Assembly: GCA_937872315.1 (NCBI GenBank)
Contig: CALMST010000244.1
Span: 1 to 52,128 of the forward strand
Direction: 5' to 3'
DNA from: an uncultured Ignavibacteria bacterium
GTDB lineage: Bacteria; Bacteroidota; Ignavibacteria; Tepidaquicellales; Tepidaquicellaceae
DNA length: 52,128 nucleotides
Shown in pieces: positions 2,919 through 52,128 of the stretch (position 1 is the stretch's first letter; every line of letters starts with the position of its first letter). Below the pieces are notes generated by a model. It was not told the DNA's origin. It worked only from the letters and a program-made list of their open reading frames with translations, and did not search any database. The position numbers and the translations under genes were made by a program.

Positions 2919-2942
2919 GTTGATAATTCGAAAATTGTTTAC

Positions 2943-2990: not shown

Positions 2991-3004
2991 AAAAACCTTA
3001 TTTC

Positions 3005-4414: not shown

Positions 4415-4431
4415 ATGCAGTCATAAATTAT

Positions 4432-4474: not shown

Positions 4475-4505
4475 ATAACTTTTTGACAAATCAAAATTTA
4501 AGATA

Positions 4506-7756: not shown

Positions 7757-8188
7757 ATGAAAGATAGTTTACAAAAAAATCAGCAGCAATTTGAAAGCGA
7801 ATTAAAGACTTCTGATAAATTAGCTATCGGAAGAACTGTCCTTGCTCAGGAAAGAACTCTTATGGCTACTGTCAGAACTTCAGTTTCTCTTATAAGTTTT
7901 GGGTTTACAATAGCTAAGTTTTTTCAGGATCTGAAATCAATGAATGTTTTGAATTCAGGTGCTAATATCCCTTCAAGCAGAGTGGGGTTATGGCTTGTGA
8001 TCATAGGTACAATATACATTATTCTGTCATCAATTCAGCATGTTCTCGTCCTGAAATCCCTCCATTTTGAAGGACAAAAAAGAAGAATTTCATTTACGTT
8101 TATTCTTGCTGTTCTGATCTCGCTATTGGGTATTAGTTTAATAGTATCTTTTTATTCCGATATTTTTTCACTTGGACTGAATAAGTAG
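7757..8188 (+). CDS. DUF202/YidH-like inner-membrane protein
   Basis: A 143-residue protein with a soluble N-terminal ~30 residues and three predicted transmembrane helices (about 47-63, 77-98 and 113-135). The block LAIGRTVLAQERTLMATVRT just before the first helix is the DUF202 (YidH/YidG) signature. Function is unknown. The gene converges with the MscS gene at 8217, with 28 bases between stop codons and no strong hairpin. Confidence 0.85.
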   Translation: MKDSLQKNQQQFESELKTSDKLAIGRTVLAQERTLMATVRTSVSLISFGFTIAKFFQDLKSMNVLNSGANIPSSRVGLWLVIIGTIYIILSSIQHVLVLKSLHFEGQKRRISFTFILAVLISLLGISLIVSFYSDIFSLGLNK

Positions 8189-8216
8189 CTTTATCAGTTA
8201 ATATGATTTGTCCGGA

Positions 8217-9062
8217 TTAATTTTCAGGAGGGGGATTTTTTTCATTTTGATGAAGAACTACCTGAAGGAATGGTATTGTAATATCATTTTCTCTGAAGAT
8301 CTTTGTGATCTCATACCGGATATTACTTTTCGTAGATTCTATTCTGAATAAATTATGACTCCAGAAGATAAGCTGAAAATCAAGCGCCGAAGCTCCGAAA
8401 TCATTGAACCTTACAAAAGGTTTATATTTTTCCCCGATAAAAATATCAGGATTATTATGTACAGCCTGAAGAAGGCATTTTGTTACCAGATCAACATCGG
8501 AAGAATAATCCACTCCTACGTCAATTATGAATCGTGTAGGTGCAGTGTTGTGTGTCCAGTTAATTACATATTCTTCTACAAACTTATGATTCGGAATTAT
8601 TACAATATTGTCATCTCTTGTCAGAACTGTTGATGTTCTCAAAGAAATTTCTTTGACCTTCATTATTTTATTTTCTATCTCAACAATATCATTAACTTTT
8701 ATAGTCCCTTCTATAAGTAAAACAATTCCGGACATAAAATCTTTGAAAATGATTTGCATACCAAGTCCTAAACCTACTAATAAAGCTGCGCTGCTTGCAA
8801 TCAGAAAAGTAATATCAATATTCAGAATATTAAGGCAGCTGATAACCGCGACAATCCAGAGAATATATTTCAGAAGCTGAACGACTGCATGAACTCTTCC
8901 ATCTGGTATTCTGGTGGTGGTCATTCTCTTTATGATTATCCTGGAGATGATCTTTATCAGAAATACATTGGCAAGTAAAACCGCAAATACGAAAAGTATT
9001 CTGCCTATGGTAAGTGTGAAGTCTTTATAATGCAGCAATTCGATATTGAGAATTTCTTCCAT
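8217..9062 (-). CDS. Small-conductance mechanosensitive channel (MscS family)
   Basis: A 281-residue MscS-family channel. Three N-terminal transmembrane helices end in the pore-lining segment containing GLGLGMQIIFKDFMSG, then the beta domain with EGTIKVNDIVEIE and TSTVLTRDDNIVIIPNHKF, and an alpha/beta C-terminal cap. Length and layout match classical E. coli MscS (286 residues). Such channels release solutes on hypo-osmotic shock. It starts 24 bases after the stop of a second, larger MscS gene and lies third in an antiporter-MscS-MscS operon. Confidence 0.9.
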   Translation of the reverse strand: MEEILNIELLHYKDFTLTIGRILFVFAVLLANVFLIKIISRIIIKRMTTTRIPDGRVHAVVQLLKYILWIVAVISCLNILNIDITFLIASSAALLVGLGLGMQIIFKDFMSGIVLLIEGTIKVNDIVEIENKIMKVKEISLRTSTVLTRDDNIVIIPNHKFVEEYVINWTHNTAPTRFIIDVGVDYSSDVDLVTKCLLQAVHNNPDIFIGEKYKPFVRFNDFGASALDFQLIFWSHNLFRIESTKSNIRYEITKIFRENDITIPFLQVVLHQNEKNPPPEN

Positions 9063-9086
9063 CTTATATTTAGTATGCAGATTTAA

Positions 9087-11012
9087 CTATTCTTCGATAT
9101 TTTTTTTGTCATCATTCTTTATCTGTGTTATTCTGAATGCCGGAGCTTCATAATTCTTATCAAGATATTCCGAAGGAATTGTGACAGTATTACCGTCACG
9201 CTCTGCTCTGTAATGAGGTGACAGAATTTCAATACCCGCTTCATTGCAGCAGTCCTGAATATTCTGGTGAAGCTGGGAATAGATGACTGCCTGTTTCCCG
9301 GCATCTTTTGTATATCCATTTATCTGGTAAGATACATAAAAATCATCGAGGCTTGTCTGTAATACAAATGGAGAAGGATCTTTCTGAATCATATCAGTTC
9401 TGAGTGCAGCGTCAATAAGAGCTTTATGCATGATCTTCCAGGGGACGTCATAACCAATGGTAACAGTAGAGTGAACTATCAGACCCGGATCTTCCGGTTT
9501 TGTGTTTGTGGAATAGTTTATTGTGCTGCTTGATAATACGTTAGCATTCGGAACCGTAATGTCCTCATTCTTAATTGTTCTGATGCGTGTTACAAGCATG
9601 GATTTTTCTATTACATCTCCTGTCACTTCACCTATCTTTACACGATCTCCTATTTTAAAAGGTCTCATATAAGTGATCACAAGACCTGCCACCATGTTCG
9701 AAATTGCATTGGAAGAACCAAGTGAAAAAAGAACACCTATGAACACAGATACTCCCTGAAATGCCGGCGAGTCCGAACCCGGAAGATAAGGAAATATAAG
9801 AACTATCATAAAAGCATATAAAAGAAATTTTATGATATTAAAAGTAGGCAATGCCCAGTCCGAATGAAATCCGCTAATATTAATGTTTCCGTTCTGGATC
9901 TCATCAAAGAAATATTTTACGCCTTTTAGTGCGTAACGGAATATGGAGTAGATTACAATTATCGTAAAAAGATTTGGAAGGTAATCAAGTATTCCCGACA
10001 TTGCATTCCCGGCAGGTGTTAAAACCCAGCTGAGTAAAGTATTTGTATAAGCCTTTGTATTTGGAAAAATGCTGAATAAAACCGGTAAACTGAAATATAT
10101 TACCAGTATGATCACAATTACACGCAGTATGTTTAATGCTCTTAATGCAAATTTAAGCTGATGATGCGGGGTCAGCAATTTTATATTACGTATAGTAAAT
10201 CCATTGAAATATTTCTCTTTGTTTTTATGGAGATATAATTCAAGCCGTTTGAATAATTTACGAATGGAGATTATCAATACACTTAGTATCACAATGATGA
10301 GCAGAACCATGCCAATTCTTTTGAGCCAGCTAATAAGGCTGTTATCACCGCGAACTTTTTCTATTTCATATCTGATTGTTGAAAGATATTCTTCCGCAAG
10401 CTGATTACTTTCCTTATTAAACCAAAGAGCATCCAGATTATTTACGGAAAGTATTACGGATTCATTATTATAGACTATGTCATTTCCGTATTCAGTTTCT
10501 ACAATTCTTAAAGAATCCGGATTAAAAAACGGATCATCATAAAGTTTTCTGATCCGGAGCGAAATAGCAGATGCTCTGTCTTTGGAGTTAAATGAACCGG
10601 ATTTTGTATAAATAAAAAACAGAGTGTCGTTCCTCAATGTAACCGGGTATCCTAACGCATTTTTTTTCAGTTGTGCAATATTTTCCAGCTGTTCAGCTTT
10701 ACGAAGTGAGTCATTGACGGCGATCTCATTTAATTTCGCCTCAAGTTCTTCGGTTTTCTGTTTGTCATCACCCGCATCCTCAAGTTCTTTTCGAAGCTGG
10801 ATTTTAATTAAAGAATCCATATGCTGCATCTGCTGCTGGTGCATAAGTGTAGACTGAGTGGCATTGCTTAAAGAATCAGCTTTTAATGAATCATTAATGA
10901 CTTTCTTTGACGTGGCGGAAAAATCTCTTTTTGAATTATCATCCCTGGAATACACCGATAAGGAAATGAAGCATAGTACAGAAATAAAAAATACTATTTT
11001 AAGCCTGTTCAT
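9087..11012 (-). CDS. Large MscS-family channel with periplasmic N-terminal domain
   Basis: A 641-residue MscS-family protein. A signal peptide (about 1-22) is followed by a charged, Gln/Lys-rich, probably coiled-coil stretch to about residue 115 and a soluble domain to about 225. Four or five membrane helices follow, then the conserved pore and beta domain: SLGSSNAISNMVAGLVITYM, RPFKIGDRVKIGEVTGDVIE and NEDITVPNANVLSSSTINYS. The extra N-terminal module suggests a channel that senses more than bilayer tension. Its start codon overlaps the end of the upstream antiporter gene by 14 bases, which implies translational coupling. Confidence 0.88.
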   Translation of the reverse strand: MNRLKIVFFISVLCFISLSVYSRDDNSKRDFSATSKKVINDSLKADSLSNATQSTLMHQQQMQHMDSLIKIQLRKELEDAGDDKQKTEELEAKLNEIAVNDSLRKAEQLENIAQLKKNALGYPVTLRNDTLFFIYTKSGSFNSKDRASAISLRIRKLYDDPFFNPDSLRIVETEYGNDIVYNNESVILSVNNLDALWFNKESNQLAEEYLSTIRYEIEKVRGDNSLISWLKRIGMVLLIIVILSVLIISIRKLFKRLELYLHKNKEKYFNGFTIRNIKLLTPHHQLKFALRALNILRVIVIILVIYFSLPVLFSIFPNTKAYTNTLLSWVLTPAGNAMSGILDYLPNLFTIIVIYSIFRYALKGVKYFFDEIQNGNINISGFHSDWALPTFNIIKFLLYAFMIVLIFPYLPGSDSPAFQGVSVFIGVLFSLGSSNAISNMVAGLVITYMRPFKIGDRVKIGEVTGDVIEKSMLVTRIRTIKNEDITVPNANVLSSSTINYSTNTKPEDPGLIVHSTVTIGYDVPWKIMHKALIDAALRTDMIQKDPSPFVLQTSLDDFYVSYQINGYTKDAGKQAVIYSQLHQNIQDCCNEAGIEILSPHYRAERDGNTVTIPSEYLDKNYEAPAFRITQIKNDDKKNIEE

Positions 11013-12186
11013 TTTGTAATTGATTTTTTTTATTGAACATAATACCTGCCATCATTATGATTGCAGATAATAAAATTACCTGAATGATCAAAGATTCATT
11101 TACAAAAGAAAGTTGCTGCGAAGAAGGTATGGAAATGAAAAGCAGGATTGTAATTAAACCTCTGGGCGCGATAAAAAGTAATGGGCTGACATCCATTTTA
11201 CCAATTTTCAACTGAATGAAACGGACAAAGTATATTACAAAAATTATTCCGAAAGCTATCAGGAGTCCGTTTGGCTCCAGAAGAGTTGAAGCGTCTATAA
11301 GAAACCCAAACAAAAGGAAGAACATTGTCCTTACCAGAAAAGCTATTTCCACCACTACTTCTCTGAACCTCTGTACTTCCGTTTCAAGTTTTTCCGGAGC
11401 TAATTTTTTTATGAAAGAAAAATTTTTCAGCTCTTCAAGATTGTTGAGCCACAAACCGAAGATCAATATAAAGATCAATGAAGGCAAGTGATAAATCTTC
11501 GATACGGTATAGATCAGGATCACGATCATTATTATCGGTATGAACTTTACATGATGATCAATATTCTTGATAAGTAAAGCCAGTCCTATGCTTGCTCCAA
11601 ATGAGATCAGAAGAATACTTACAAGCTGTAATAAAAAATGTCCGCCTGCAGTCAGGTTTATGATCTCATTTACCGTAAAAAAATTAAATATGATGACTCC
11701 GAAAATATCAGACATACTTGATTCATATATGACGAATTCCTTGTTAGTTTTACTTAAATATCTCACACTCGGAATCGCGACTGCGCTGCTTATAATACAA
11801 AAAGGAATTGCATGTATAAAACTGTCCTTGAGACTTGCTTCCGACATCAAGTGAAACACATATCCGATAATTAAAAATAATACAATTATAGGTATAAGTG
11901 CTGAAAGCGCTGATTTTGTTAAAACATCCTTCTTACTTTTGTTTATTTCAAGTTCAAGACTGCCTTCAAGCACAATAAGAATTAGTCCGACAGTACCAAG
12001 TATGGGAAGTAAAGGATCCAGATCCGGTACCCCGGTAATATCAAAAAAAGAAATCAGCTGATGAACTCCCCATCCCAAAGCCAGCAGTAATACAACAGAT
12101 GGTATTTTCGTATGCTTAGAACTTAGATCAAACGCATAAGATATTAAGATAAGTATACACAGAGTTACAATAATGGCTGTTGTCAT
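10999..12186 (-). CDS. Cation:proton antiporter (CPA family)
   Basis: A 395-residue polytopic protein with about twelve hydrophobic helices and the monovalent cation:proton antiporter pattern: an N-terminal SSKHTKIPSVVLLLALGW block, then PLLPILGTVGLILIVLEGSL, which resembles the helix 3-4 region of NhaP/KefB-type exchangers. It is the promoter-proximal gene of an operon with two MscS channels and overlaps the second gene by 14 bases. The context points to ion and osmotic homeostasis. Na+ versus K+ specificity cannot be read from the sequence. Confidence 0.87.
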   Translation of the reverse strand: MTTAIIVTLCILILISYAFDLSSKHTKIPSVVLLLALGWGVHQLISFFDITGVPDLDPLLPILGTVGLILIVLEGSLELEINKSKKDVLTKSALSALIPIIVLFLIIGYVFHLMSEASLKDSFIHAIPFCIISSAVAIPSVRYLSKTNKEFVIYESSMSDIFGVIIFNFFTVNEIINLTAGGHFLLQLVSILLISFGASIGLALLIKNIDHHVKFIPIIMIVILIYTVSKIYHLPSLIFILIFGLWLNNLEELKNFSFIKKLAPEKLETEVQRFREVVVEIAFLVRTMFFLLFGFLIDASTLLEPNGLLIAFGIIFVIYFVRFIQLKIGKMDVSPLLFIAPRGLITILLFISIPSSQQLSFVNESLIIQVILLSAIIMMAGIMFNKKNQLQNEQA

Positions 12187-18496: not shown

Positions 18497-19146
18497 TCAT
18501 TGACTTATAGAATGCAATTCTTTTTCATGTGCAGAATATTTTGCAGACTTTGGAATAAAATAAATGGGAGCGCCGGGTTTGGTAAGTTCTTCTCTGAGAG
18601 TACTTTCAACAAATTTTTGAAGCATATTGGCAAAATGAAAAACCGTCCATGTATGAAGATATTTAAAATTCATTGGTTCTCTTTCTTTTAAACTTCTTTC
18701 GTGGTAATACAGGCATATGCATCAATGTATAGTTGTTATACAGTAAAAATGGTTTATCTGACTTTACGCTTTTCTCAAGGTATTTAAAAGCGCGGCGTTC
18801 ATATTCGGTATCAAGATTTAATTTCAGAACCATAGTGATTTTTTCTTTTTCAACCACCTTCCCGCCTTTCTTTCCTTCCATCATATAAGAGACCGGATCC
18901 CGTCCGGGTAAATACCATGGATCAGTTTCCCATAATGCGCAATCATATGATCCCGGAGGACCATACCATTCATCAAAGCCATGATCTGTCGCCCATCTTA
19001 CATCTTTTTCTCAGATATGCCATTTTCCCAAACATAAAGTTGAATATCCGGCATCCGAAAAAAGGTCTCCCATAGTCCGCTCCCATGCAGTAAGGCCGCC
19101 CGGAACTACCGGAAAAGTTGCTTTTGTATTTCCGGTAAGTAGGGAA
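18497..19146 (-). pseudogene. Decayed sulfatase relic
   Basis: Minus-strand reading from 19146 gives a sulfatase fragment starting just after the formylglycine site (LLTGN). It continues through LFSDAGYSTLCLGKWHI, an in-frame TGA at 19011-19013, HGFDEWYGPPGSYDCALWET, then KPFLLYNNYTLMHMPVLPRK. After a stop near 18672 a shifted frame gives HTWTVFHFANMLQKFVEST and KPGAPIYFIPKSAKY, which look like a sulfatase C-terminus. The 5' third (metal Asp pair and CxPxR), the middle (DNG region) and the reading frame are all lost. The 5' break lies next to the palindromic repeat at 19157. It resembles signal-bearing arylsulfatases more than the 780-residue type nearby. Confidence 0.75.
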
Positions 19147-19375: not shown

Positions 19376-21730
19376 ATGGCTTTAAAAGAATACAAACCGG
19401 GGACAGCTTTCACCGGTGTAATTGGAAGAACATTTGATGTTTCGTCACCGGCATGACCCGAGCCCAAGCGTGCCAAAAAAGGAACGCCGAATGTTTTATT
19501 CATCGTTCAGGACGACACAGGTTTTGGAAATCTTGGTTGTTTCGGAAGTCCTATAAAAACACCTAATCTTGATTCACTCGCAAAAGGCGGTTTGATATAT
19601 AATAATATGCATACAACAGCTTTATGTTCACCAACCCGTTCATGCATACTCACCGGAAGAAATCATCATTCAAATGCAATGGCTTGCATAACGGAAGGCT
19701 CGGAAGGATTTCCGGGAAGCAACGGGTCCATACCATTTGAAAATGGATTCTTATCGGAAATGTTGTTGCAAAACGGTTACAATACTTATGCGGTAGGAAA
19801 GTGGCATCTTACTCCGGCAGAACAAAATTCAGCCGCCGGTCCTTATGACCGCTGGCCGCTAGGAAGAGGATTCGAAAGATTTTACGGATTTCTCGGAGGA
19901 GATACCAGCCAGTATTATCCTGATCTTGTTTATGATAATCATCAGGTGGAACCTCCAAAAACTCCTGAAGAAGGTTATCATCTTACAGTTGATCTGACTG
20001 ATAAAGCCATCGGTTTTATAGCGGACTCAAAGCAGGTAGCTCCTGACAAACCTTTCTTTTTGTATTTCTGTCCGGGAGCGATGCATGCACCGCATCAGGT
20101 ACCGAAAGAATGGGCTGATAAATATAAAGGTCAGTTTGATAAAGGCTGGGATGATTACAGAGAGAAGACTTTTGCAAGACAAAAGAAACTTGGGATAATA
20201 CCAAAGGATGCTGTTTTATCACGCCACGATCCTGATGTTCAGGACTGGAAGAAACTTTCTGCAGATGAAAGAAAATTATTTTCAAGAATGATGGAAGTAT
20301 TTGCGGGATTCCTCGAACATACCGACCATCAGTACGGAAGATTATTTCAGTTTTTAAAAGATATGAAATTATGGGATAATACTCTGATCATGTTCATTTC
20401 GGATAACGGAGCAAGCTCTGAAGGTGGTCCTACCGGATCCACTAATGAAAATAAATTTTTCAATAATGTACCTGAGGATCTGGAAGAAAATCTGAAAGCC
20501 ATGGATGAACTTGGCGGACCAAAATATTTCAATCATTATGCATGGGGCTGGGCGCACGCAGGTAACACTCCGTTTAAGAGATGGAAACGTGAAACATACA
20601 GGGGAGGAGTTTCAGATCCGTTTTTAGTTCACTGGCCAAAAGGTATTAAATCCAAAGGTGAAACGAGAACCGCATTTACCCATGCAATAGATATGCTGCC
20701 GACTGTACTGGATGCGCTCAACATTACTCCGCCGGATTCGATAAAAGGTGTATCTCAGTCACCGATACAGGGTAAGAGTTTTGCCAGAACTTTTGATGAT
20801 AAAAAATCTAAAGGAGATCACATAACGCAATACTTTGAAATGTTTGGTCACCGGTCTTTGTATCATGACGGATTCAGAGCCGTTTGTCCTTGGCCCGGTG
20901 ATTCTTTTACTGAGTCAGGACTTGGATTCGGAGCTCCAATAGATGCTGCAAAGCTTACAGAGCTGGATGCAAATAACTGGGAATTGTATGATCTTACAAA
21001 AGATCCTACGGAAACAAATAACATTGCAAAAAATAATAAGGCAAAGTTGATAGAGATGATTGCGCAGTGGTATGTGGAAGCCGGAAAATATGATGTGCTG
21101 CCGGTTGACTCACGCGGAACCTTGAGATTTACTGATGAAAGACCGCAGATTGCTGAAGCCAGGAAATCTTATACATATTATCCTGGTACTCAAACGGTAC
21201 CATCATTTGCTGCTGTCGATGTTATGAACCGTTCTTTTAGTATCACAGCAGATGTAGATATTCCAAAAGACGGCGCTGAAGGTGTCATTTTTTCATTCGG
21301 AGGAAATGACGGAGGTGTTACTTTTTATATTAAAGATAAAAAACTTCACTTCGGATATAATTATGTCGGTTCAGAATATTTTTATGTCTCATCCGTCGAT
21401 GATGTACCAAAAGGAAGACAGAAGTTAAGATTAGAATTTGAAATATCCGGTAAACCAAACTTTGAAATAGGAAAAGGTGCTCCCGGCACGGCGCAGCTTT
21501 ATTTCGGAAAAAAGCTAAAAGGTCAGAATGATTTCAAAACTACGCTTCCTATTGCATTTGGACTCGGCGGAGGTGTTCATATAGGCAGAGATACAGGTTC
21601 TGCTGTGGTACCGGTATATAAACCGCCGTTTGATTTTACAGGTAAAATTTATTCTGTAACTGTCGATGTGAGCGGAGATCTGATAAAGGATGATGAAGCA
21701 ACAATGAAAGCTATCATGGCCAGGCAGTAG
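19376..21730 (+). pseudogene. Arylsulfatase interrupted by in-frame TGA at codon 27
   Basis: From ATG 19376, preceded by an intact AGAAAGGA, the frame is 785 codons long and open except for TGA at 19454-19456 (codon 27). The 27214 paralogue has TGG (Trp27) at this position in the same PA-W-P context. All catalytic elements lie downstream: Asp46-Asp47, the Cys84-Ser-Pro-Thr-Arg88 formylglycine site, GKWH at 141-144, the GAMHAPH His, SDNG and the FKRWKRETYRGG Lys block, then the ~200-residue C-terminal LamG-like domain. No ATG, GTG or TTG lies in frame between the TGA and the Asp pair. The next start, TTG at 19592, would lose it. So it is either newly inactivated or expressed by readthrough. 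No other damage is seen. Confidence 0.8.
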
Positions 21731-22239: not shown

Positions 22240-23067
22240 TTACAGATCCGTTATCTTCAGTTCTTTTAAAATTTTATAAGTAATTCCTCTTCTAGAATTA
22301 TTGAATAAATCAGCCCGTTCATTATCATCAATATTTTTACTGTCTGTCTGCACACAGATTGCGAAATAATATACATTATCATTCGCTTCGGCATATCCGA
22401 CAAACCATCCTATATCTAAATTATCCTGACTTCCCCAGCCGGATTTTCCTCTTAAGACATAGCCGGCAGTATCATTTTCTATCATTATCTCTTTAACTAT
22501 ATCCAGCGAGCGTTGTGAAAAGGGGAGTTTATTTGTGTTCAATCTTATCAGAAAATCTATTTGTTCTGATGGAGTGATCCGCAGTCCGCCTGTAAGCCAG
22601 AATTTATCAATCCCTCCGGACGTATCTGCATTGCCGTAATCAGCTGTATCCAGCCAGTATTGCATTCTCTCTCCTCCGACTCTTCTTGCAAGCTCCCGGT
22701 AATACCAGACAGTTGAATTTTTAAAGGCATTTTTGAGATCATAATCCTTATCCCAAACCGGATTTCTCTGCACGCTGTCCCAGGGGATCACAAAATTTTC
22801 ATCAGGTATTACACCGGTTTCAAGTCCTATAAGGGAATTACATATCTTGAATGTGGAAGCCGGGGTAAATTGACGATTGTATTGTTCCTGATTATAAAAT
22901 ATGAATCTGTCTGCTTTGCTGTCATATACTACAGCTGAACCTTCAACCTGATATTCATCAAAGTATTTTCTGAATTCATCCCGTATTTCAATCGTCTGTG
23001 AATATCCGGGCAACAAATAAAATATCATAATCAAAAAGATTGTCAGAACTTTTATTTTTCTTATCAT
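22240..23067 (-). CDS. Class D beta-lactamase (OXA-type)
   Basis: A 275-residue serine beta-lactamase with a Sec signal peptide (cleavage near GYSQ) and all class D motifs in register: Ser71-Thr-Phe-Lys74 (active serine and carbamylated lysine), Ser118-Thr-Val120, Tyr144-Gly-Asn146, Lys208-Ser-Gly210 and Trp221-Phe-Val-Gly224. The length is that of typical OXA enzymes. It acts in the periplasm on penicillins and possibly other beta-lactams; the spectrum cannot be inferred. No mobile element or integron feature flanks it and its composition matches the neighbours, so it looks like an intrinsic chromosomal gene. It could instead be a related BlaR1-sensor-like domain, but it lacks any membrane receptor part. 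Confidence 0.93.
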   Translation of the reverse strand: MIRKIKVLTIFLIMIFYLLPGYSQTIEIRDEFRKYFDEYQVEGSAVVYDSKADRFIFYNQEQYNRQFTPASTFKICNSLIGLETGVIPDENFVIPWDSVQRNPVWDKDYDLKNAFKNSTVWYYRELARRVGGERMQYWLDTADYGNADTSGGIDKFWLTGGLRITPSEQIDFLIRLNTNKLPFSQRSLDIVKEIMIENDTAGYVLRGKSGWGSQDNLDIGWFVGYAEANDNVYYFAICVQTDSKNIDDNERADLFNNSRRGITYKILKELKITDL

Positions 23068-42783: not shown

Positions 42784-44214
42784 TTGAAAAAGTATTTCTT
42801 ATTTTTTATCACAATATTTGCTTTTTTTGCATTTAATGCAAATGCGCAATTCAAAAATTATGGGGTTAAAGGAGGAATTCAATATCAGCAGTTACTTCCT
42901 TTTTCCGAGTTTGACGCAAGATTTTCATTTCTAGCAAGAGGTTTTGTTAATTTTGAATTAACAAATACTTTATCATTAGACCTTGGCGCAGGTTATGGTC
43001 AGTATAAGACTGATGATCATTTTAATACATATCCTGCATCTTCTCCTGGAGATCATGATGTTTCAACAGATATAATTCCTGTTGATGTAAGATTGAGAAT
43101 TGCTCCATTTCCTTCCAAAAACTGGAATCCATATTTTTATTTTGGCGGAGGAGTAGTAAAATATAATGTCCAAAATGTGCCTGGTGATACTGCTATTCCT
43201 CAATTTGATACCAAGGAGAGCGGATGGGCAGGGTATTTCCCTGTGGGAATAGGTACGGAAGCAAGATTATCGGATAATGTCTTACTTGATATTAATGGAG
43301 GAGTGTCATATACAACCACAGATCTGTTAAATAATTTTGTTATTCCGGATTTTCAGGATGCTTCAGCTAATCTTGGAATCGGTTTGACTTTTGCCGGAAG
43401 CGATCTATGTGAAACTGATGAGGACAGAGACGGACTTACCTATTGCAGAGAAGAACAGTTAGGAACAGATCCTGAGAATCCAGATACAGACGGTGACGGA
43501 TGTAAGGACGGAGAAGAGGTTGATGTTTATCTGACAAATCCTCTAAATGTGGATACTGACGGAGACGCATTGAATGATTGTGATGAGATAAGGATCCATT
43601 CAACAAATCCGTTAAAGATGGATACAGATGCGGACGGGCTAAATGATTATGATGAAATTAATAAATACTCAACACTTCCGACCAATCCTGATACTGACGG
43701 TGACGGATTAAAAGACGGCGCGGAGGTATTAACTCATAAGACAGATCCTAAGAACAAAGATACTGATGCAGGAACTGTGGGAGACGGAGTTGAAGTGGGA
43801 AGAGGTTCTGATCCTTTAGATCCGTCAGATGATCTTCCGCCGCCTCCACCACCTGAAGAAAAGGTAAAAGTAGGTGATGTGATTACACTTGAAGGAATCA
43901 ACTTTGCTACAAACAGCTGGCAGATCACATCGCTTGCAGAAGATAAACTCGAAGTAGCATTAAATTCACTTAAAGATAATCCGAATGTTGAAGTCGAGAT
44001 CATTGGACATACAGACAATACCGGACGCAGAGCCTGGAATATGGAATTATCAGAAAAGAGAGCTCAGTCTGTTAAAGAGTGGTTTGTAAGTAAAGGTATC
44101 TCCGGATCCAGAATTACTACAATCGGTATGGGACCTGATGATCCGATCGCTCCTAACAATACTAAAGAAGGCAGGTATATGAACAGAAGGATCGATTTCA
44201 AAAGAATTAAATAA
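42784..44214 (+). CDS. OmpA-family protein with TSP3 repeats
   Basis: A 476-residue outer-membrane protein from a TTG start. A signal peptide (cleaved near NANAQ) precedes an eight-stranded barrel to about residue 205. About five thrombospondin type-3 calcium-binding repeats follow (DEDRDGLTYC, DTDGDGCKDGEEVDVY, DTDGDALNDCDE, DTDADGLNDYDE, DTDGDGLKDGAEV). A six-proline hinge leads to an OmpA peptidoglycan-binding domain from ~365 (INFATNSWQIT, HTDNTGRRAWNMELSEKRA). It links the outer membrane to peptidoglycan; the acidic repeats are a calcium-stiffened periplasmic spacer. A strong terminator follows. Confidence 0.93.
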   Translation: MKKYFLFFITIFAFFAFNANAQFKNYGVKGGIQYQQLLPFSEFDARFSFLARGFVNFELTNTLSLDLGAGYGQYKTDDHFNTYPASSPGDHDVSTDIIPVDVRLRIAPFPSKNWNPYFYFGGGVVKYNVQNVPGDTAIPQFDTKESGWAGYFPVGIGTEARLSDNVLLDINGGVSYTTTDLLNNFVIPDFQDASANLGIGLTFAGSDLCETDEDRDGLTYCREEQLGTDPENPDTDGDGCKDGEEVDVYLTNPLNVDTDGDALNDCDEIRIHSTNPLKMDTDADGLNDYDEINKYSTLPTNPDTDGDGLKDGAEVLTHKTDPKNKDTDAGTVGDGVEVGRGSDPLDPSDDLPPPPPPEEKVKVGDVITLEGINFATNSWQITSLAEDKLEVALNSLKDNPNVEVEIIGHTDNTGRRAWNMELSEKRAQSVKEWFVSKGISGSRITTIGMGPDDPIAPNNTKEGRYMNRRIDFKRIK

Positions 44215-44230
44215 ATAAGTGCTGATTACT

Positions 44231-44271
44231 AACTGCGTCTTTTTTAAATATATCAAAGACGCAGTTTTTTT
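44231..44271 (+). terminator. Intrinsic terminator after OmpA gene
   Basis: A 12-bp perfect stem (AACTGCGTCTTT / AAAGACGCAGTT, 44231-44242 and 44255-44266), with the second arm running into a T tail. Confidence 0.88.
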
Positions 44272-44310
44272 AAAAATATCGGTAAGTTTATTTTTATTAA
44301 ATTAACTCTA

Positions 44311-44340
44311 TAATAATGCCACCACTAATAATGCCACCAC
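44311..44340 (+). repeat. 15-bp tandem duplication of a start-codon region
   Basis: TAATAATGCCACCAC occurs twice head to tail, giving two in-frame ATGs (44316 and 44331) for the following sulfatase. Compared with its sisters, this gene has no AGAAAGGA-type ribosome-binding site upstream. Confidence 0.92.
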
Positions 44341-46688
44341 TAAAAGAATACAAATCCGGACAGACGTTTCCAGGAGTGATTGGAAGAACATATGATCAAT
44401 CGCAGCCTGCCTAGCCTGAACCAAACCGCGCTAAAGAAGGCGCTCCAAATGTATTGTTCATTGTCCTTGATGATACAGGTTACGGTCATCTCGGATGTTA
44501 CGGCAGTCCGATAAAAACACCTAACATTGACAGTCTGGCAAAGAATGGTTTATTGTATAATAACATGCATACCACCGCTCTTTGCTCTCCCACAAGATCC
44601 TGCATTCTTACAGGCAGAAATCATCATTCCAATCACGTTGGATGCCTCACTAACGGCTCTACCGGCTTTCCGGGGTTTGACGGATACATGCCTTTTGAAA
44701 ACGGAACGATGGCTGAGATACTTAAGGAAAACGGTTACAATACATATTGCATTGGTAAATGGCATCTGGCTCCTGAAGAGACAATGTCAGCAGCTGGTCC
44801 ATATGACCGATGGCCGCTTGGAAGAGGATTCGAAAGATATTACGGTTTTCTCGGAGGGGATACGCATCAGTATTATCCTGAGCTTGTACGCGACAATACA
44901 CAGACTGAACCTGAAAAGACACCGGAAGAAGGCTATCATCTTACTCCCGATCTTGTGGATCAGGCAAAATCAATGATCGCTGATTCTAAGCAGATCGCTC
45001 CGAATAAACCTTTCTTTATGTATTTCGCTCCCGGAGCAATGCATTCACCTCATCACGTTCCTAAAGAATGGGCGGATAAGTATAAAGGTAAATTTGACAA
45101 AGGATGGGATGCTTACAGAAAAGAAGTCTTCGAAAAACAGAAGAAGCTAGGCATCATTCCAAAGAATACGAAATTGTCCCGGCATGATCCTGATGTGCAG
45201 GACTGGAACAAGTTATCTAAAAAAGAGAAAAAGGTCTTTGCGAGAATGATGGAAGTATTTGCCGGATTTCTGACTCATACAGATCATTACATTGGTGAAC
45301 TTATGGATTTTTTAAAGAAGATCGGTGAATATGACAATACTCTTATCATGCTGATATCCGATAACGGTTCCAGCGCTGAAGGAGGTCCCACAGGATCAGT
45401 AAATGAATGCAGATTCTTCAATAACCTTCCTGATACTGTCGATGAGATCTATGAAAAACTGGATGAGATAGGCGGACCGGAATGTTTCAACCATTTCCCA
45501 TGGGGATGGACCCACGCCGGCAATACTCCTTTCAGGAGATGGAAAAGGGAAACTTACAGAGGAGGCATAAGCGATCCGTTCATTATTCACTGGCCTAAAG
45601 GTTTTAAATCAAAAGGAAAAGTAAGGACACAATATACTCATGCGATAGATATGGTACCAACAGTTCTGGAAGCCGCTGGAATAGATCCTCCGGGATCGAT
45701 CAAAGGAATAACTCAGTCACCCGTTGAAGGCGTAAGTCTCGTCAGTACTTTTGATAATGAGAAAGATTCCGGTAAACATGTCACACAGTATTTTGAAATG
45801 CTCGGGCATCGTTCCATTTATCATGACGGCTGGAGAGCTGTCTGTCCGTGGCCCGGAACTTCATTCACTGAATCGGGAAGAAAATTCGGAACTCCCATAG
45901 ATGATAAGACTCTCACTGAACTTGATATAAAAGGCTGGGAGCTTTATAATCTGAAAGAAGATTTTGCGGAGACAAAAGATCTTGCTCAGAAAGAAAAAGA
46001 TCGTCTTATCGCAATGATCGGTATGTGGTATATTGAAGCGGGAAAATACAACGTTCTTCCTGTTGACGGCAGGGGAACTCAGAGAATTGCAGAAGAAAGA
46101 CCTCAGATTGCCGGACCAAGAAGCAGATACATTCTTTATTCAGGGACACAAGCAATTCCGGCAAATGCCGCTCCGAAGATACTGAACAGACCTTATTCAA
46201 TTACGGCTGAAGTTGAAATTCCGAAAGGCGGGGCTGACGGAGTGCTGTTAAGCATGGGCGGCAATGACGGCGGAATTACTTTTTATGTTCAGGACGGATA
46301 CTTATGCTATGCAATGAATTATGTGACCATGGATTATTTTTATGTGAAGTCTGATAAGAAAATTCCTGATGGACATCATTTCCTGAGTATGGAATTCAAA
46401 CCGACAGGGAAAGCTGATCCAATGAAAGGTAAAGGAACACCAGGCGATGTAAAGCTGATGGTGGACGGGAAAGTTATAGGAAAGGGAAAATTCCCTGTTA
46501 CAACTCCTATCCGTCTTGGACAAGGCGCGCAGATGCAGGTAGGAAAAGATGCCGGATCATCAGTAATTCCGGATTATAAACCGCCTTTTTCATTTTCAGG
46601 AAAAATAAACAGAGTAATTGTAGATGTCAGCGGGGAGGAAGTAGCCTATTATGAATCTGCAATGAAAATATTTTTAATGAAACAGTAG
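44331..46688 (+). pseudogene. Arylsulfatase interrupted by in-frame TAG at codon 28
   Basis: Counted from ATG 44331 the frame is 786 codons, open except for TAG at 44412-44414 (codon 28). Because the N-terminus is one residue longer, this aligns exactly with Trp27 of the 27214 gene and with the TGA of the 19376 gene. Downstream are Asp47-Asp48, Cys85-Ser-Pro-Thr-Arg89 plus SCILTGRNHH, GKWHLAPEE, GAMHSPHHVP, ISDNGSSAEG, FRRWKRETYRGG and the LamG-like C-terminal domain. A TTG at 44454 could restart and keep the Asp pair but would cut into the first beta strand. The ATG at 44316 is also in frame. Whether it is expressed is open. Confidence 0.8.
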
Positions 46689-46719
46689 ATCTCATCTTAT
46701 ATGATATTATCTAAAAAAT

Positions 46720-46778
46720 TCTGTCAGATGCTATCTTTATAAGTGAAAAGATTTTATTGGCTCTGACAGATTTTTTTT
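46720..46778 (+). terminator. Intrinsic terminator after TAG-interrupted sulfatase
   Basis: TCTGTCAGA / TCTGACAGA inverted repeat (9 bp) with a 33-nt loop and eight Ts. Unlike the other two sister genes, the sequence is not related to the CTCCTT/AAGGAG terminator. Confidence 0.75.
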
Positions 46779-46805
46779 GAAATATTATTAATTTAATTTG
46801 CGACA

Positions 46806-47618
46806 ATGAAATTTATATTTTTTCTTTTATTATTCTCAGGATATGCTTTCAGAATAACAGCACAGGATTCAAAAGAAATTGCTGAAGACAATGCCGCAGC
46901 AAATGCAACCAATCCACTCGCATTTGTAACAAAATTACAATTCCAGCCCAACTACTCATGGAAAGATGAAGGAGGTGATCAGCTTTCACTTATCAGCAGA
47001 ATTTCCAAACCAACAAAGACATTAGGACTGCCTTTTATTAAAAGCAAGGACCCTTCAAAAGTATATACAATATACAGGCTTGAAGTGCCGGTAATAGGTC
47101 AGACATTGTCTGACAGTCAGAGTGTCCTGAATGCTACAGGAATAAGTGATATGGTCCTTTTGGATGTGATCGCTTTCAAACAAAAATGGGGTCTTATTGG
47201 AATAGGTCCGGCATTGCTGATTCCTTCAGCATCTCCGGAAATTCTGGGAACAGGGAAATGGAGCGCAGGTCCTGTCGGAGTTTTGCTTTACACAGGAGTT
47301 AAGAAACTGCAGCTGGGTTTTCTTGCTCAGCAGTTTTTTTCATTTGCAGGGAGCGAGCAAAGAAAAGACGTAAATTTTATGCTGTTCCAGCCAATAGTAA
47401 ACAAAATATTCGTGGATGGTTATTTCATGCAAATTTCTCCAATTATGAAATTTGATTGGGAAATCAGCAAATATAATATTCCTGTAAGTCTTGCTTTGGG
47501 AAAAGCATTTGCAAAAAATCTTTCTATGTTCCTTGCGGGCGAATATGTTTTGAGCGGTCCCGGAACAGGCGATCTGACATTCAGAATTAATGTCAATGCT
47601 ATGTTTGCAGCACTTTAA
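46806..47618 (+). CDS. Outer-membrane protein, family often annotated neuromedin U
   Basis: A 270-residue protein with a signal peptide (cleaved near RITAQ). It resembles a bacterial outer-membrane family commonly and misleadingly called neuromedin U: NPLAFVTKLQFQPNYSW at the start, GISDMVLLDVIAF, GLIGIGPALLIPSASPEILG, GKWSAGPVGVLLYTG, then FLAQQFFSFAG. The strands and final amphipathic segment are barrel-like. It begins a probable operon with 47628 and the 48614 sulfatase (gaps of 9 and 17 bases). A role in substrate passage across the outer membrane is inferred from that linkage. Confidence 0.8.
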   Translation: MKFIFFLLLFSGYAFRITAQDSKEIAEDNAAANATNPLAFVTKLQFQPNYSWKDEGGDQLSLISRISKPTKTLGLPFIKSKDPSKVYTIYRLEVPVIGQTLSDSQSVLNATGISDMVLLDVIAFKQKWGLIGIGPALLIPSASPEILGTGKWSAGPVGVLLYTGVKKLQLGFLAQQFFSFAGSEQRKDVNFMLFQPIVNKIFVDGYFMQISPIMKFDWEISKYNIPVSLALGKAFAKNLSMFLAGEYVLSGPGTGDLTFRINVNAMFAAL

Positions 47619-47627
47619 AAAAATAAA

Positions 47628-48596
47628 ATGATTATTAAAAATAAGAAATATATTTTTGTTTTGATTATTTTTTGTATCTGCTCTTTTGGGCAGGTAAATG
47701 CTCAGGGTGACGGTCCGCGCGCATTCATGCTTGCTCCGAAAGGCGTTGCCGGAATTAATGCCAAATGGATGAATTTAAATCAGAATTTTCTTCCCGGAAG
47801 CAATATACTTGTTGAATCCGCCAATCTGGATATAAACGTATTTCCGGTTACGTTATTTTATAATTTCGGAATTGCTGATCATTATGCTCAGGCATTATTT
47901 ATGTTCAATCCCGGTAAGGCGACAGGGAGTATCACTTCTAATCTAAACATTCCATATGATAATCAAAGCGTTACAGGTTTTTCAGACGGATTTTTGGGTT
48001 TGAAATTCGGATTAATTGGCTCGCCTGCATTGGATCTTCTGCAGTTTGCAAAACATAAACCTGATTTTTCATTAATGAGTTATTTCAAACTTTGGTATTC
48101 AGGTTCATATGACAGCAGTAATGCGCTTAATTTAGGATCTAACCGCCTTACTTATGAAATGGGACTTCCAATTGTAATCCCGGTATTTAAAAGCTCTAAA
48201 AATCCTTTGTGGATCGAAGCTTATCCATTTATACAGTTTTATTCAACCAACACGGAACCATCTTTTATTTCGCGTTCTGAGGAATCTTATCAGAAGCCTC
48301 TCTTCGGACTTGAGACCCATTACACTTACAATTTATCGGATAAATTCTGGACAGGTATAGATCTAAGGTATCAGTATGGAGGTGAAGTTGAACTTGACGG
48401 AGTAACTCAGGATAATAAAATAAATATTCTTGGAGGAGGTCTCTCTGCAGGTTATCAGATTTTACCATTTTTAAGTATCTCAGGCAGCTATGGAAAAATA
48501 TTAACCGGAGACAATAATGCAAAATCCGATTTGATAAGATTAAGTCTGATATTCGTTTATGCAAACACAAAAAATCTTAACATGTTAAATAATTAA
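47628..48596 (+). CDS. Outer-membrane barrel, Phenol_MetA_deg-like
   Basis: A 322-residue exported barrel. The signal peptide ends near VNAQ. GPRAFMLAPKGVAGINAKWM and the following INVFPVTLFYNFGIAD block fit the MetA-pathway-of-phenol-degradation family (PF13557), which includes FadL-like outer-membrane transporters for hydrophobic compounds. SGFSDGFLGLKFGLIG and later strands SISGSYGKILTG support a barrel. It is the middle gene of a three-gene unit with another barrel and a sulfatase, suggesting uptake of sulfated hydrophobic substrates; that role is an inference. Confidence 0.8.
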   Translation: MIIKNKKYIFVLIIFCICSFGQVNAQGDGPRAFMLAPKGVAGINAKWMNLNQNFLPGSNILVESANLDINVFPVTLFYNFGIADHYAQALFMFNPGKATGSITSNLNIPYDNQSVTGFSDGFLGLKFGLIGSPALDLLQFAKHKPDFSLMSYFKLWYSGSYDSSNALNLGSNRLTYEMGLPIVIPVFKSSKNPLWIEAYPFIQFYSTNTEPSFISRSEESYQKPLFGLETHYTYNLSDKFWTGIDLRYQYGGEVELDGVTQDNKINILGGGLSAGYQILPFLSISGSYGKILTGDNNAKSDLIRLSLIFVYANTKNLNMLNN

Positions 48597-48613
48597 TTTA
48601 AAATATTATCGTT

Positions 48614-50929
48614 ATGAATTCAAAATCAAAGAAAGCAGAAACAGGGAAAATCCTGCCATTTCCTCCGGTTCCTTCCGCAAGTAAAGCAGGAGAAACCCTG
48701 GCTGAAAGTACAATGATCAGGAGACCTCAGCCGGATTATCTTCCGAAAGATGCGCCGAACATACTTATCATTTTAATGGATGATGTAGGATTCGGACAGT
48801 GCGGAACTTTCGGTGGAGAAGTAAATACTCCTACCATGACAAAACTTCGAAATGAAGGAATTGCTTATAATACATTTCATACTACTTCGATATGTTCACC
48901 GACAAGAGCTTCTTTGCTGACCGGAAGAAATCATCAGAGGGTCCACTCAGGTACTATTGCCGAAAGGGCTGTTGACTGGGACGGATACACCGGAGTAATT
49001 CCCGAGACATCAGCAACAGTAGCGGAAGTCCTTAAAGAGTATGGATATAAAACCTGCGCTTTCGGTAAATGGCACAACACTCCTGCCGATCAGACGACAT
49101 CCATGGGACCTTTTGACCGCTGGCCAAACGGTCACGGGTTTGAACATTTTTACGGATTCATGGCAGGTGAGACTTCTCAATATGAACCCAGACTTTATGA
49201 AAATTATAATGCAATCGAGCCGCCGCGAACTGCGGAAGAAGGTTATCATTTAACCGAAGATCTTGCTGACAAAGCGCTTGAATGGCTGAAGCAGCACAGG
49301 GCTTTTTCTCCCGACAAACCTTTCTTCATGTACTGGGCTCCGGGCGCAGCTCATGGTCCTCACCACGTGCATAAAGAATGGGCTGATAAATATAAAGGGA
49401 AATTTGATGACGGCTGGGATGAATACAGGAAAAGAGTTTTTGAAAGACAGAAAAAAATGGGCTGGATACCTGAGGATACTAAGCTGACTGAGCGAACTGA
49501 AACAATGGCATCATGGGACAGCATTCCGGAAGGTGAAAGAGCTTTTCAGAGAAGACTGATGGAAGTGTTTGCAGGATTTGCCGAGCATGCAGATGTACAG
49601 GCAGGGAAAGTAATTGACGGGCTTGAAGAGCTGGGAATAAAGGACAATACATTGATCTTTTATATCTGGGGGGATAACGGTTCAAGCGCTGAAGGACAGG
49701 GCGGATCAATATCCGAACTGCTTGCTCAGAACCAGATCCCGAATACAATAAAACAGCAGATGGAATCACTAGACAAACTTGGAGGATTAGATGTTCTCGG
49801 TTCTCCAAAAACTGATAACATGTATCATTCAGGATGGGCATGGGGAGGTTCTGCGCCATTCAAACATACAAAACTGATTGCATCACATTTCGGAGGGACA
49901 AGAAATCCTATGGTTGTTTCATGGCCGGAAAAAATCAAAGCCGATAAGACTCCAAGAGGACAATTCCATCATGTAAATGATATTGTTCCGACAATATATG
50001 ATGTACTTGGAATTACTGTTCCGGATTCAGTTAACGGATTTAAGCAGGATCCTATAGACGGGATCAGCATGAAATACACTTTCAGTAAAGCAAAAGCAAA
50101 AGGTAAAAAAGGTCCGCAATATTTTGATAACAACGGAAGCAGGGGAATATATCATGACGGGTGGTTTGCATGCGCTTTCGGTCCATTGTATCCGTGGCTG
50201 ACCGTAAGTCCGGGTCTTGCCGAATGGGATCCGAAAAAAGATGTTTGGGAATTATATGATCTGAGGAAAGACTTTTCTCAGGCAAATGATCTTGCCGGAA
50301 AATTTCCAAAGAAACTTGCTGAGATGAAAAAGTTATTTTTAAAAGAAGCAAAGAAAAATAAAGTGTTTCCGATAGGAGCGGGGATATGGCTCAGGCTGCA
50401 TCCCGAAGACAGGATCAAAACACCATACAGCAGCTGGACCTTTGATGAAAGCACCATCAGAATGCCTGAATTTACAGCTCCGGGGCTGGGCAGAGAAAAC
50501 AATAAAGTTGTTATAGACCTTGAAGTTGGAGAAACAGCAAACGGAGTTTTATATTCGCTTGGAGGATTTTCAGGAGGACTTACTTTCTTTGCGGAGAATG
50601 GGAAACTTGTTTATGAATACAATATGATGATCATTGAAAGATATACTGTGGAGACGAAGCAGAAACTTTCCAAAGGCAGGCATAAAATTGAAGTCATTAC
50701 AAAACTGACAGATAAGAGGCCAATGTCATCCGCAAAAGTCACAATAAAAGTTGACGGGAAAGAATGGGCAACCGGAATGGTCGGAAGAACAGTTCCTGCG
50801 GCATTCACAGCAAGTGAGTGTTTTAATGTAGGAGTTGATCTTGGTTCTCCTGTATCTGAAAGATATTTTGACAAAGCACCGTTCAGATATAACGGGAAGA
50901 TAAATACTGTAAAGGTTGTGTTAACGTAA
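48614..50929 (+). CDS. Arylsulfatase, 771 residues, in operon with two barrels
   Basis: A type I sulfatase without a signal peptide. Asp56-Asp57 (LMDDVGFG) and the formylglycine site Cys94-Ser-Pro-Thr-Arg98, then ASLLTGRNHQ, are intact. FGKWHNTP gives the Lys/His pair, and WAPGAAHGPHHVH and WGDNGSSAEG supply the remaining ligands. FKHTKLIASHFGGTRNP resembles the 791-residue enzyme rather than the PAWP type. Residues ~615-771 form the C-terminal LamG-like domain. An extended polar N-terminus (about 45 residues) is not a signal. It starts 17 bases after the preceding barrel gene and so is probably co-expressed with the two outer-membrane proteins. Confidence 0.93.
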   Translation: MNSKSKKAETGKILPFPPVPSASKAGETLAESTMIRRPQPDYLPKDAPNILIILMDDVGFGQCGTFGGEVNTPTMTKLRNEGIAYNTFHTTSICSPTRASLLTGRNHQRVHSGTIAERAVDWDGYTGVIPETSATVAEVLKEYGYKTCAFGKWHNTPADQTTSMGPFDRWPNGHGFEHFYGFMAGETSQYEPRLYENYNAIEPPRTAEEGYHLTEDLADKALEWLKQHRAFSPDKPFFMYWAPGAAHGPHHVHKEWADKYKGKFDDGWDEYRKRVFERQKKMGWIPEDTKLTERTETMASWDSIPEGERAFQRRLMEVFAGFAEHADVQAGKVIDGLEELGIKDNTLIFYIWGDNGSSAEGQGGSISELLAQNQIPNTIKQQMESLDKLGGLDVLGSPKTDNMYHSGWAWGGSAPFKHTKLIASHFGGTRNPMVVSWPEKIKADKTPRGQFHHVNDIVPTIYDVLGITVPDSVNGFKQDPIDGISMKYTFSKAKAKGKKGPQYFDNNGSRGIYHDGWFACAFGPLYPWLTVSPGLAEWDPKKDVWELYDLRKDFSQANDLAGKFPKKLAEMKKLFLKEAKKNKVFPIGAGIWLRLHPEDRIKTPYSSWTFDESTIRMPEFTAPGLGRENNKVVIDLEVGETANGVLYSLGGFSGGLTFFAENGKLVYEYNMMIIERYTVETKQKLSKGRHKIEVITKLTDKRPMSSAKVTIKVDGKEWATGMVGRTVPAAFTASECFNVGVDLGSPVSERYFDKAPFRYNGKINTVKVVLT

Positions 50930-50981
50930 CAGGTAAGAAGTCAATTATCAAAATTCAAATGATTTGCTTTCATTCGTACTG

Positions 50982-51006
50982 CCCCTCTTCTTGTTGGAAA
51001 GGGGTT
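50982..51006 (+). terminator. Weak hairpin after operon sulfatase
   Basis: CCCCT / AGGGG with a 13-nt interior and only a three-T tail. It may be a weak terminator. Confidence 0.3.
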
Positions 51007-51174
51007 TGGCTATAAATATTAATTTATTTTTGACAGAAATGAACAGTAATGATAGGTATGATACAGTTGCCGGTCTTAAGAACTTAGTGACCTGTAACAG
51101 TTATTTGTAAGTTGAAATTTATAACTTGTATCCGAAGCATCGGATCAACAATTTAATTTTTAAAAAGTAAAAAT

Positions 51175-52023
51175 TTGGCTGAGATACTTTTAAATGTCAT
51201 AAGCATAAGCGCAATACTGGCCATTCCCACACAGTCTATCATACTTGGACTGAAAGCCGGGAGACCGTTTTTCAAAGAATTATTTTCTCAGAAAAAGCTT
51301 CTGAGCAGATTCATAATTACGATGTTTGTGATCATTCCGGGAGTTGCCATAATGTTTTCATACATAACAGGTAACCTGATAAGCATATGGAGTGTAGTAT
51401 TGATCATTGCGGTAGCTCCTGCATCACCCGGTGTAGTAAAAGTTATGTCAAAACTGGAGGGTGATCAGAATGTCAGCACGGCATGGATGATCCTTACTAT
51501 GCTGCTTTCTCTGATATTTTTTCCCATTATTATAATGATGCTTCAGGCATATCTTGGTATTGTACTGAAACTGGGGGTAGTGGATGTGGTCATTAAGTTG
51601 ATGATCCTTTTCATAGTTCCGCTCGGAATTGGTTTTCTGATAGCAAAATATTCTCAGGAAAAAACGGATAAGATCAAGAAGATCCTTGAACCGGTTTCAA
51701 AAATTGCAATGCTTACATTGATAGTTTCCCTCCTCATAAGTTCAGTGCCCCTGATAATTAAAAACGGAATTACACCAATCATATTATTACTGTCATTTAT
51801 AATTGTATCTCTTGTAATAGCACATGTAATGGGCTCTCCGGAAAGGGAATTCGGACCTATACTCCCTTTTTCGATTGTTCACAGATTACCAGCTCCCGCG
51901 GTTATTCTCACCAAACTTAACGGCACTATGGAAATGCACCTGCCTGTTATAATTTCCTACACCATTCTTGCGACTATAGTGATGATCATTTACAATAAGA
52001 TATTTTTCGGGAAGAAAAATTGA
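51175..52023 (+). CDS. Bile acid:sodium symporter-like (BASS) membrane carrier
   Basis: A 282-residue protein with eight or nine transmembrane helices. Length, helix pattern and the conserved VVLIIAVAPASPGVVKVMSK segment near residue 80-100 resemble the SBF/BASS family of Na+-coupled organic-anion carriers, but the identification is moderate. It starts with TTG; an in-frame TAA lies 18 bases upstream and no alternative start is available. Known BASS substrates include sulfated steroids and bile acids, which would fit a role next to cytoplasmic sulfatases, but this is inference. A 9-bp tandem array starts within its stop codon. Confidence 0.68.
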   Translation: MAEILLNVISISAILAIPTQSIILGLKAGRPFFKELFSQKKLLSRFIITMFVIIPGVAIMFSYITGNLISIWSVVLIIAVAPASPGVVKVMSKLEGDQNVSTAWMILTMLLSLIFFPIIIMMLQAYLGIVLKLGVVDVVIKLMILFIVPLGIGFLIAKYSQEKTDKIKKILEPVSKIAMLTLIVSLLISSVPLIIKNGITPIILLLSFIIVSLVIAHVMGSPEREFGPILPFSIVHRLPAPAVILTKLNGTMEMHLPVIISYTILATIVMIIYNKIFFGKKN

Positions 52024-52128
52024 GTGTATGGAGTGTGTGGAGTGTATGGAGTGTATGGAGTGTGTGGAGTGTATGGAGTGTGTGGAGTGTGTGGAGTGTA
52101 TGGAGTGTGTGGAGTGTGTGGAGTGTGT
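52022..52128. repeat. Tandem array, 9-bp unit x12, running off the window
   Basis: Units of GAGTGTRTG (R is A or G, in irregular order) start at the second base of the BASS gene stop codon and continue to the window end. Total length is unknown. Confidence 0.95.

Follow-up and report, generated by a model that had tools for sequence, protein, structure and literature searches.

A candidate locus for the uptake and desulfation of sulfate esters in an uncultured Ignavibacteria bacterium

A 52,128-nucleotide stretch of DNA from an uncultured Ignavibacteria bacterium (GenBank assembly GCA_937872315.1, contig CALMST010000244.1; hereafter the window) is an entire contig (C244) of a 4.56 Mb metagenome-assembled genome in 386 contigs. 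Near its end it carries genes for two outer-membrane barrels (BARREL1 and BARREL2), a leaderless formylglycine-type sulfatase (SulfL6) and an SBF-family transporter (BASS). This cluster, together with the pairing of BARREL1 homologues and sulfatases in distant bacteria, suggests a little-studied form of intake and desulfation of greasy sulfated molecules. At roughly even chances, we propose that the locus is a sulfate-ester scavenging unit, by which an amphipathic sulfate ester would pass the outer membrane, be taken inwards by symport and lose its sulfate in the cytosol. Support for uptake comes from the tight gaps between genes, the hairpin upstream, the gene order kept in relatives, purifying selection, co-occurrence among genomes and the sulfatases found in BARREL1 neighbourhoods. 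As judged from the sequence, the gene order, the family assignments, the catalytic motif, the lack of a leader and the conservation of BARREL2-SulfL6-BASS are properties of the locus. Systems that join a sulfatase to an importer and a protein for uptake through the outer membrane are already known as a kind; the transporter parts found here are different.

BARREL1 (46806-47618, 270 aa), BARREL2 (47628-48596, 322 aa) and SulfL6 (48614-50929, 771 aa) are all located on the forward strand, with gaps of 9 and 17 bases. BASS (51175-52023, forward strand) follows SulfL6 after 245 bases, and the contig ends 105 bases past it. On the upstream side, a conserved neighbour, the sulfatase gene SulfL5 (44331-46688, forward strand), is separated from the trio by a hairpin with a U-run, likely a terminator (46708-46780, forward strand), which folded at −22.9 kcal/mol with a z-score of −5.2, none of 200 shuffled sequences folding as well. 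This hairpin is absent from the list of terminators predicted by consensus pattern, in which the loop limit was 8. A weaker hairpin (z-score −1.7) was detected by RNA folding between SulfL6 and the SBF gene. Given the terminator-like hairpin upstream, the trio is predicted to start, and probably does start, its own transcription unit. The whole run between 42784 and 52023 consists of OmpA, a sulfatase, two barrels, a sulfatase and SBF, before the contig ends at 52128.

The SulfL6 product matched PF00884 (Sulfatase) with 206.5 bits, and its nearest solved chain was AtsA of Pseudomonas aeruginosa (1hdh, E 2e-56). The C-x-P-x-R motif is present as CSPTR at residue 94, while the DD, GKWH, H, DNG and lysine motifs fall in stretches aligned to 1hdh; we take these residues to have metal-binding and active-site roles. 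Unlike both barrels, which have signal-peptide-like starts, SulfL6 has no leader-like hydrophobic stretch, the best 11-residue hydrophobic mean being 0.83, where the barrels reach 2.24 and 3.25. The copies of Ignavibacteria sulfatases that were compared are also leaderless. Among 26 sulfatase homologues in other genomes of the phylum, inspected by eye, 21 have a leader-like or lipoprotein-like start and 5 (all in genome G165) have none. A formylglycine-generating enzyme (FGE) is encoded on the same contig (1910-2869, forward strand; PF03781, 272 bits), the best of three PF03781 matches in the genome. It carries GGSHLCAPNYC at residue 281, presumably the two-cysteine motif of FGE-type enzymes, and from its sequence it is likely to mature the sulfatases of the window.

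BARREL2 is, by sequence and by predicted structure, a channel of the COG4313/Phenol_MetA_deg type. It scored 35.5 bits on PF13557 (Phenol_MetA_deg; cut-off 22), a profile of eight relatives (A2) matched the COG4313 channel 4rl8 with E 3.3e-19, and its structural model (pLDDT 73) gave 4rl8 as the first-ranked match by Foldseek (E 1.4e-13, TM 0.69/0.82). COG4313 channels have been implicated in the uptake of hydrophobic molecules, perhaps via lateral diffusion, and the solved member bound detergent; the two members with a proposed role in the portion of that paper available to us, TcpY and SphA, are described as uptake channels, and the TcpY gene lies within a trichlorophenol degradation operon (PMC4493636). 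In contrast, BARREL1 looks COG4313-like in fold only, membership by sequence having failed. Its AlphaFold model (pLDDT 77) is an outer-membrane-type barrel, whose nearest matches by TM-score were 4rl8 with TM 0.63 (E 5.6e-6, rank 9) and FapF (5o68) with TM 0.62, FapF chains scoring like 4rl8, while the first rank by E-value was a model of OmpC (TM 0.46). Against solved structures, no match to BARREL1 was obtained with either the single sequence or a profile. BARREL1 has no match to any Pfam or NCBIfam family, and none of 13 aligned members of its family matched a Pfam family, PF13557 included (E 0.01).

An earlier reading of this DNA, made from the sequence only, had proposed a three-gene operon of a neuromedin-U-type protein, a Phenol_MetA_deg-type barrel and a leaderless sulfatase. 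Its three frames, their strand, positions and gaps were all borne out, as were the second gene (PF13557 above the cut-off) and the third (PF00884 and the leader test). The neuromedin-U label gained no backing from the databases, in which neither BARREL1 nor the 13 family members matched a named family.

The last gene, BASS, matched PF01758 (SBF) with 40.3 bits against a cut-off of 24.3. A cytosolic, leaderless sulfatase would need an importer in the inner membrane. The SLC10 and SBF/BASS proteins form one superfamily. In the accessible part of its source, SLC10A6 (SOAT) is an animal carrier of sulfated steroids (PMC10298714); BASS is a bacterial gene.

The gene order was then compared with that of related genomes. 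In G033, a member of the same genus, SulfL5, BARREL2 (81%), SulfL6 (77%) and BASS (80%) are present in the same order. In G028, of another genus, SulfL5, BARREL2 (46%), a frame of 192 codons, SulfL6 (79%) and BASS (33%) follow each other in order, the BASS match beginning about 21 bases past the sulfatase. Partial versions were found in G040, which retains SulfL5 but no more of BARREL2 than roughly its first 70 residues, with BASS on another contig and no SulfL6 orthologue on the contig bearing SulfL5, and in G032, where a C-terminal remnant of SulfL6 is followed by BASS. In G027, BARREL1, a HAD hydrolase, a 516-type sulfatase, a BARREL2 relative, FGE and BASS lie side by side. Between the window and G033, the dN/dS ratios were 0.05 for BARREL2, 0.10 for SulfL6 and 0.11 for BASS, indicating purifying selection on all three, roughly estimated from sequence as dS was 1.1 to 2.6. 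A scan of contigs gave three loci: the G033 contig, a weak match in an alphaproteobacterium, beside which no sulfatase was recognised, and L049 from a Chitinophagaceae metagenome-assembled genome, in which SulfL6-like, BARREL1-like and shorter sulfatase genes stand in a row. Based on the order in relatives, the stable core is BARREL2-sulfatase-BASS, and BARREL1 comes and goes. BASS, which had been regarded as a possible extra step, belongs to this core, and an association of the genes in relatives is present in G033 and G028.

Co-occurrence was examined at two levels, the order (44 genomes) and the phylum (395 genomes). In the order, long sulfatases, sorted by eye, occur in 9 genomes; BASS (E 1e-20 or better, leaving out one G018 match of E 4e-4) occurs in 7, all within those 9, and BARREL2 relatives in 12, including all 9. 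Across the phylum, 21 genomes hold long sulfatases (at E 1e-140 or better) and 13 hold BARREL1 (profile A1); 10 genomes have both, as compared with 0.7 expected (13 x 21 / 395). BASS was found in only one of the 395 phylum genomes, the window's own, and among the genomes searched it occurs only within the order. The Fisher P values were 9e-7 by genome and 5e-4 by genus for BASS, and 4e-12 by genome and 5e-8 by genus for BARREL1. In each genome, scoring was confined to the best few candidates (6 of 49 in one of the phylum searches and 2 of 18 in another, for instance), and misses are possible.

The neighbourhoods of BARREL1 homologues, located without sulfatase queries, were inspected for sulfatases. 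Of 16 loci in the order (17 rows, two of them merged), 6 have a PF00884 gene within 5 kb, where the numbers of sulfatases and the sizes of the genomes would predict 0.23. Elsewhere in the phylum, at 10 of the 13 loci outside the window's own genome, BLAST to the window's sulfatases detected a sulfatase-like frame no more than 5 kb away (G375, G213, G264:C19, G183, G248, G165, G356, G068, G161 and G335). Plasmids, where the family reaches another phylum, gave 146 records matching BARREL1, of which 18 were picked for variety and read with flanks of 5-7 kb. A sulfatase was found near the BARREL1 homologue in 7 of the 17 annotated regions, and these sulfatases belong to two unrelated superfamilies: arylsulfatases in Rhizobium (twice), Pseudochrobactrum and Persicobacter, and annotated alkylsulfatases, directly followed by the BARREL1 homologue, in Citrobacter and Pantoea (twice). 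The metallo-beta-lactamase alkylsulfatase domains were confirmed for the Citrobacter protein, and both Pantoea regions also hold an 'outer membrane protein transport protein'. A search of E. coli genomes for the Citrobacter alkylsulfatase-barrel pair gave no match. The other ten annotated regions hold FGE without a listed sulfatase (2), DUF1254 without either (5), only HAD and MscS genes (2) or none of these (1). That BARREL1 homologues also pair with alkylsulfatases of an unrelated superfamily is the best hint of a sulfate ester, perhaps alkyl or amphipathic, as the common factor.

A route may be drawn from these data, each step of which is plausible from knowledge of the families. BARREL2, aided by BARREL1 where it is present, would pass an amphipathic or aromatic sulfate ester through the outer membrane; BASS would move the ester over the inner membrane, probably with sodium; and SulfL6, activated via formylglycine by the FGE of 1910-2869, would cleave it in the cytosol into sulfate and an alcohol or phenol. 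Co-transcription of the genes, the direction of import, the substrate class and the sodium step are what we infer in this route. More tentatively, BARREL1 could be the founder of an unclassified barrel family, present in at least two phyla, whose members are entry ports devoted to amphipathic sulfate esters. Such ports would have been recruited by formylglycine sulfatases and by the unrelated metallo-beta-lactamase alkylsulfatases, in an undescribed recurring gene set of sulfatase, FGE, DUF1254, HAD hydrolase, MscS and COG4313 barrel, and in Ignavibacteria also BASS; we hold this to be possible, with the balance tilted against it.

Several observations weigh against the scavenging proposal. 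Promoter-like sites at 48394 and 48577 lie directly before SulfL6, and a terminator-like site within BARREL1 (47312-47331) would split the unit if real, the totals of this consensus scan being near chance (20 promoter-like sites where 13.0 were expected, and 6 terminator-like sites where 3.5 were); BASS, at its distance of 245 bases, could have a promoter of its own. In G033, BARREL1 is a remnant with stops (L030, about 6697-6993); in G335, a shift of frame and stops interrupt it (L128, about 7831-8596); and at the G028 locus it was not detected in the 20 kb read, a distant homologue being present elsewhere in that genome. The genes belong together, as the order kept in relatives, the recurrence of BARREL1 with sulfatases and the placing of BARREL2 in a channel family implicated in uptake indicate, and this part of the proposed uptake-and-desulfation unit stands; the trio as a fixed unit does not. 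G034 and G039 carry leaderless sulfatases without such a BASS, for which reason the link between the two is suggestive only. Except for SulfL5, the other long sulfatases of the window have no directly adjoining barrel. No nearby sulfatase was found at 10 of the 16 BARREL1 loci in the order, two of them on contigs shorter than 5 kb, nor at 3 of the 13 loci elsewhere in the phylum (G154, G119 and G264:C18, the last with two DUF1254 genes). Most of the 10 positive phylum loci pair with a shorter sulfatase of the 516 type, mostly leader-bearing, and not with the SulfL6 type. The co-occurrence P values are too small because the genomes are related, and the plasmid and phylum neighbourhood counts stand without a random-gene control.

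Some of these observations would also be expected if the barrels were general porins adjoining a sulfatase by chance, the short gaps being due to genome compaction. The BARREL1 loci lacking a sulfatase, and the window's long sulfatases mostly lacking a barrel neighbour, agree with this view; the excess of order loci near a sulfatase (6 against 0.23), the 10 of 13 loci in other phylum genomes and the 10 shared genomes against 0.7 expected do not, and we judge it distinctly improbable. Somewhat easier to entertain, but still unlikely, is a role of the co-located barrels in export or envelope defence, by which detergent-like sulfates are excluded or removed, or the desulfated product is released. 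The closest barrel folds do include the FapF secretion channel, and the MscS channel genes, near several BARREL1 homologues and two in the window, fit envelope stress. However, no secreted partner was noticed beside the barrels, the proposed roles of TcpY and SphA, as given in the portion of PMC4493636 available to us, are in uptake, and the combination of an SBF-type transporter and a sulfatase lacking a leader agrees with import.

The enzyme itself might not be a sulfatase but a member of the same superfamily that hydrolyses phosphodiesters or phosphonate monoesters. Weak NCBIfam matches of SulfL6 to PehA and others point in this direction, all of them far below the cut-off; with AtsA as the nearest solved chain, FGE on the contig and barrel homologues that accompany alkylsulfatases as well, there is little chance of this. 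A locus for the utilisation of sulfated glycans, as known from Bacteroidota, was considered and rejected as very improbable. The genome has 12 PF00884 matches, and the presence of 7 of them on one contig would agree with such a locus. Open frames in the window, however, reach at most 798 aa, in a sulfatase, so that no SusC-size receptor is present in it (SusD was not searched by profile); a Pfam scan of 16 window proteins gave no glycoside hydrolase; and the sulfatases are leaderless, with an arylsulfatase as the nearest solved relative.

For the scavenging proposal, the nearest precedent is the atsACBR-sftR-atsK-sftP cluster of Pseudomonas sp. UW4, in which sulfatase genes accompany those of an ABC importer and of a TonB-dependent receptor, and desulfurisation of aryl and alkyl sulfate esters was proposed (PMC3596284, available in part). 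Common to both systems are an AtsA-type arylsulfatase, an importer and a protein for uptake through the outer membrane. As far as the accessible text of PMC3596284 goes, the ABC importer, TonB-dependent receptor and LysR regulator of UW4 are replaced here by barrels and SBF/BASS, with no regulator seen beside the trio. No ABC importer of the AtsRBC kind is present among the genes of 42784-52023, and no TonB-dependent receptor in the window, in which the open reading frames of at least 640 aa are sulfatases and one MscS protein. The claim that no such unit had been described therefore holds for the exact composition only.

Relative to the COG4313 channels (Pput2725, 4rl8; TcpY; SphA), BARREL2 is alike by Pfam, profile and fold, and BARREL1 may be so by fold only; no sulfatase-linked member appears in the accessible part of PMC4493636. 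SulfL6 shares the sulfatase core and catalytic motifs with P. aeruginosa AtsA, which presumably also lacks a leader, and differs in size (771 aa against 536 for the solved chain), the match ending at SulfL6 residue 573. AtsA is classified as family S1_4 in the part of PMC5066984 available. In the literature searched, which left most subscription papers outside its scope, an association of such barrels with sulfatases is not described; nothing in it ties neuromedin U or DUF1254 to bacterial sulfatases, or sulfatases to Ignavibacteria. None of the DUF1254/DUF1214 papers concerns sulfatases, judged by title, and among the sulfatase papers listed as matches none names Phenol_MetA_deg, COG4313 or PF13557.

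The outer-membrane passage of sulfated hydrophobic compounds such as detergents and steroid or phenol sulfates is poorly known. If the proposal is true, a barrel family outside Pfam that tracks two unrelated kinds of sulfatase would offer a testable entry point, DUF1254 and related unknowns would be placed in a pathway with a bearing on sulfur scavenging and pollutant turnover, and plasmid genes named only 'transporter' or 'hypothetical protein' would gain a function.

Some further features of the locus and the window were noted. The BARREL1 copies adjoining long sulfatases are broken in both G033 and G335, which belong to different classes or orders, as if the gene were readily lost. The sulfatase matches on the contig (7 of 12 in the genome) include a decayed copy at 18684-19145. 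The paralogous sulfatases at 19376-21730 and SulfL5 are 65% identical and carry in-frame stops, TGA (19454-19456) and TAG (44412-44414), at the same conserved N-terminal tryptophan position, the next 757 codons being open; intact relatives are present in G033, G039 and G027. In SulfL5, 276 of 784 codons are one change from a stop and 13 are tryptophan codons, so that agreement of the two stop positions by chance is unlikely; an assembly error is possible.

At the other end of the window, 202-5546 holds in a row a DUF1254/DUF1214 lipoprotein, FGE, a second DUF1254/DUF1214 lipoprotein and a Phenol_MetA_deg barrel, a second piece of the recurring set. Two MscS-type channels and a gene resembling, by eye, a cation/proton antiporter lie on the reverse strand at 8217-12186, and genes for MscS channels turn up again close to plasmid-borne BARREL1 homologues. 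The label 'DUF502' considered for a 206-aa window protein was rejected, being without Pfam support. The contig tail (about 52030-52128) is a short repeat, read as THSTHS on the reverse strand, which may have broken the assembly. The reverse-strand gene at 22240-23067 has by eye the look of a class D beta-lactamase or penicillin-binding transpeptidase, its product having an STFK motif that we take as the mark of this group.

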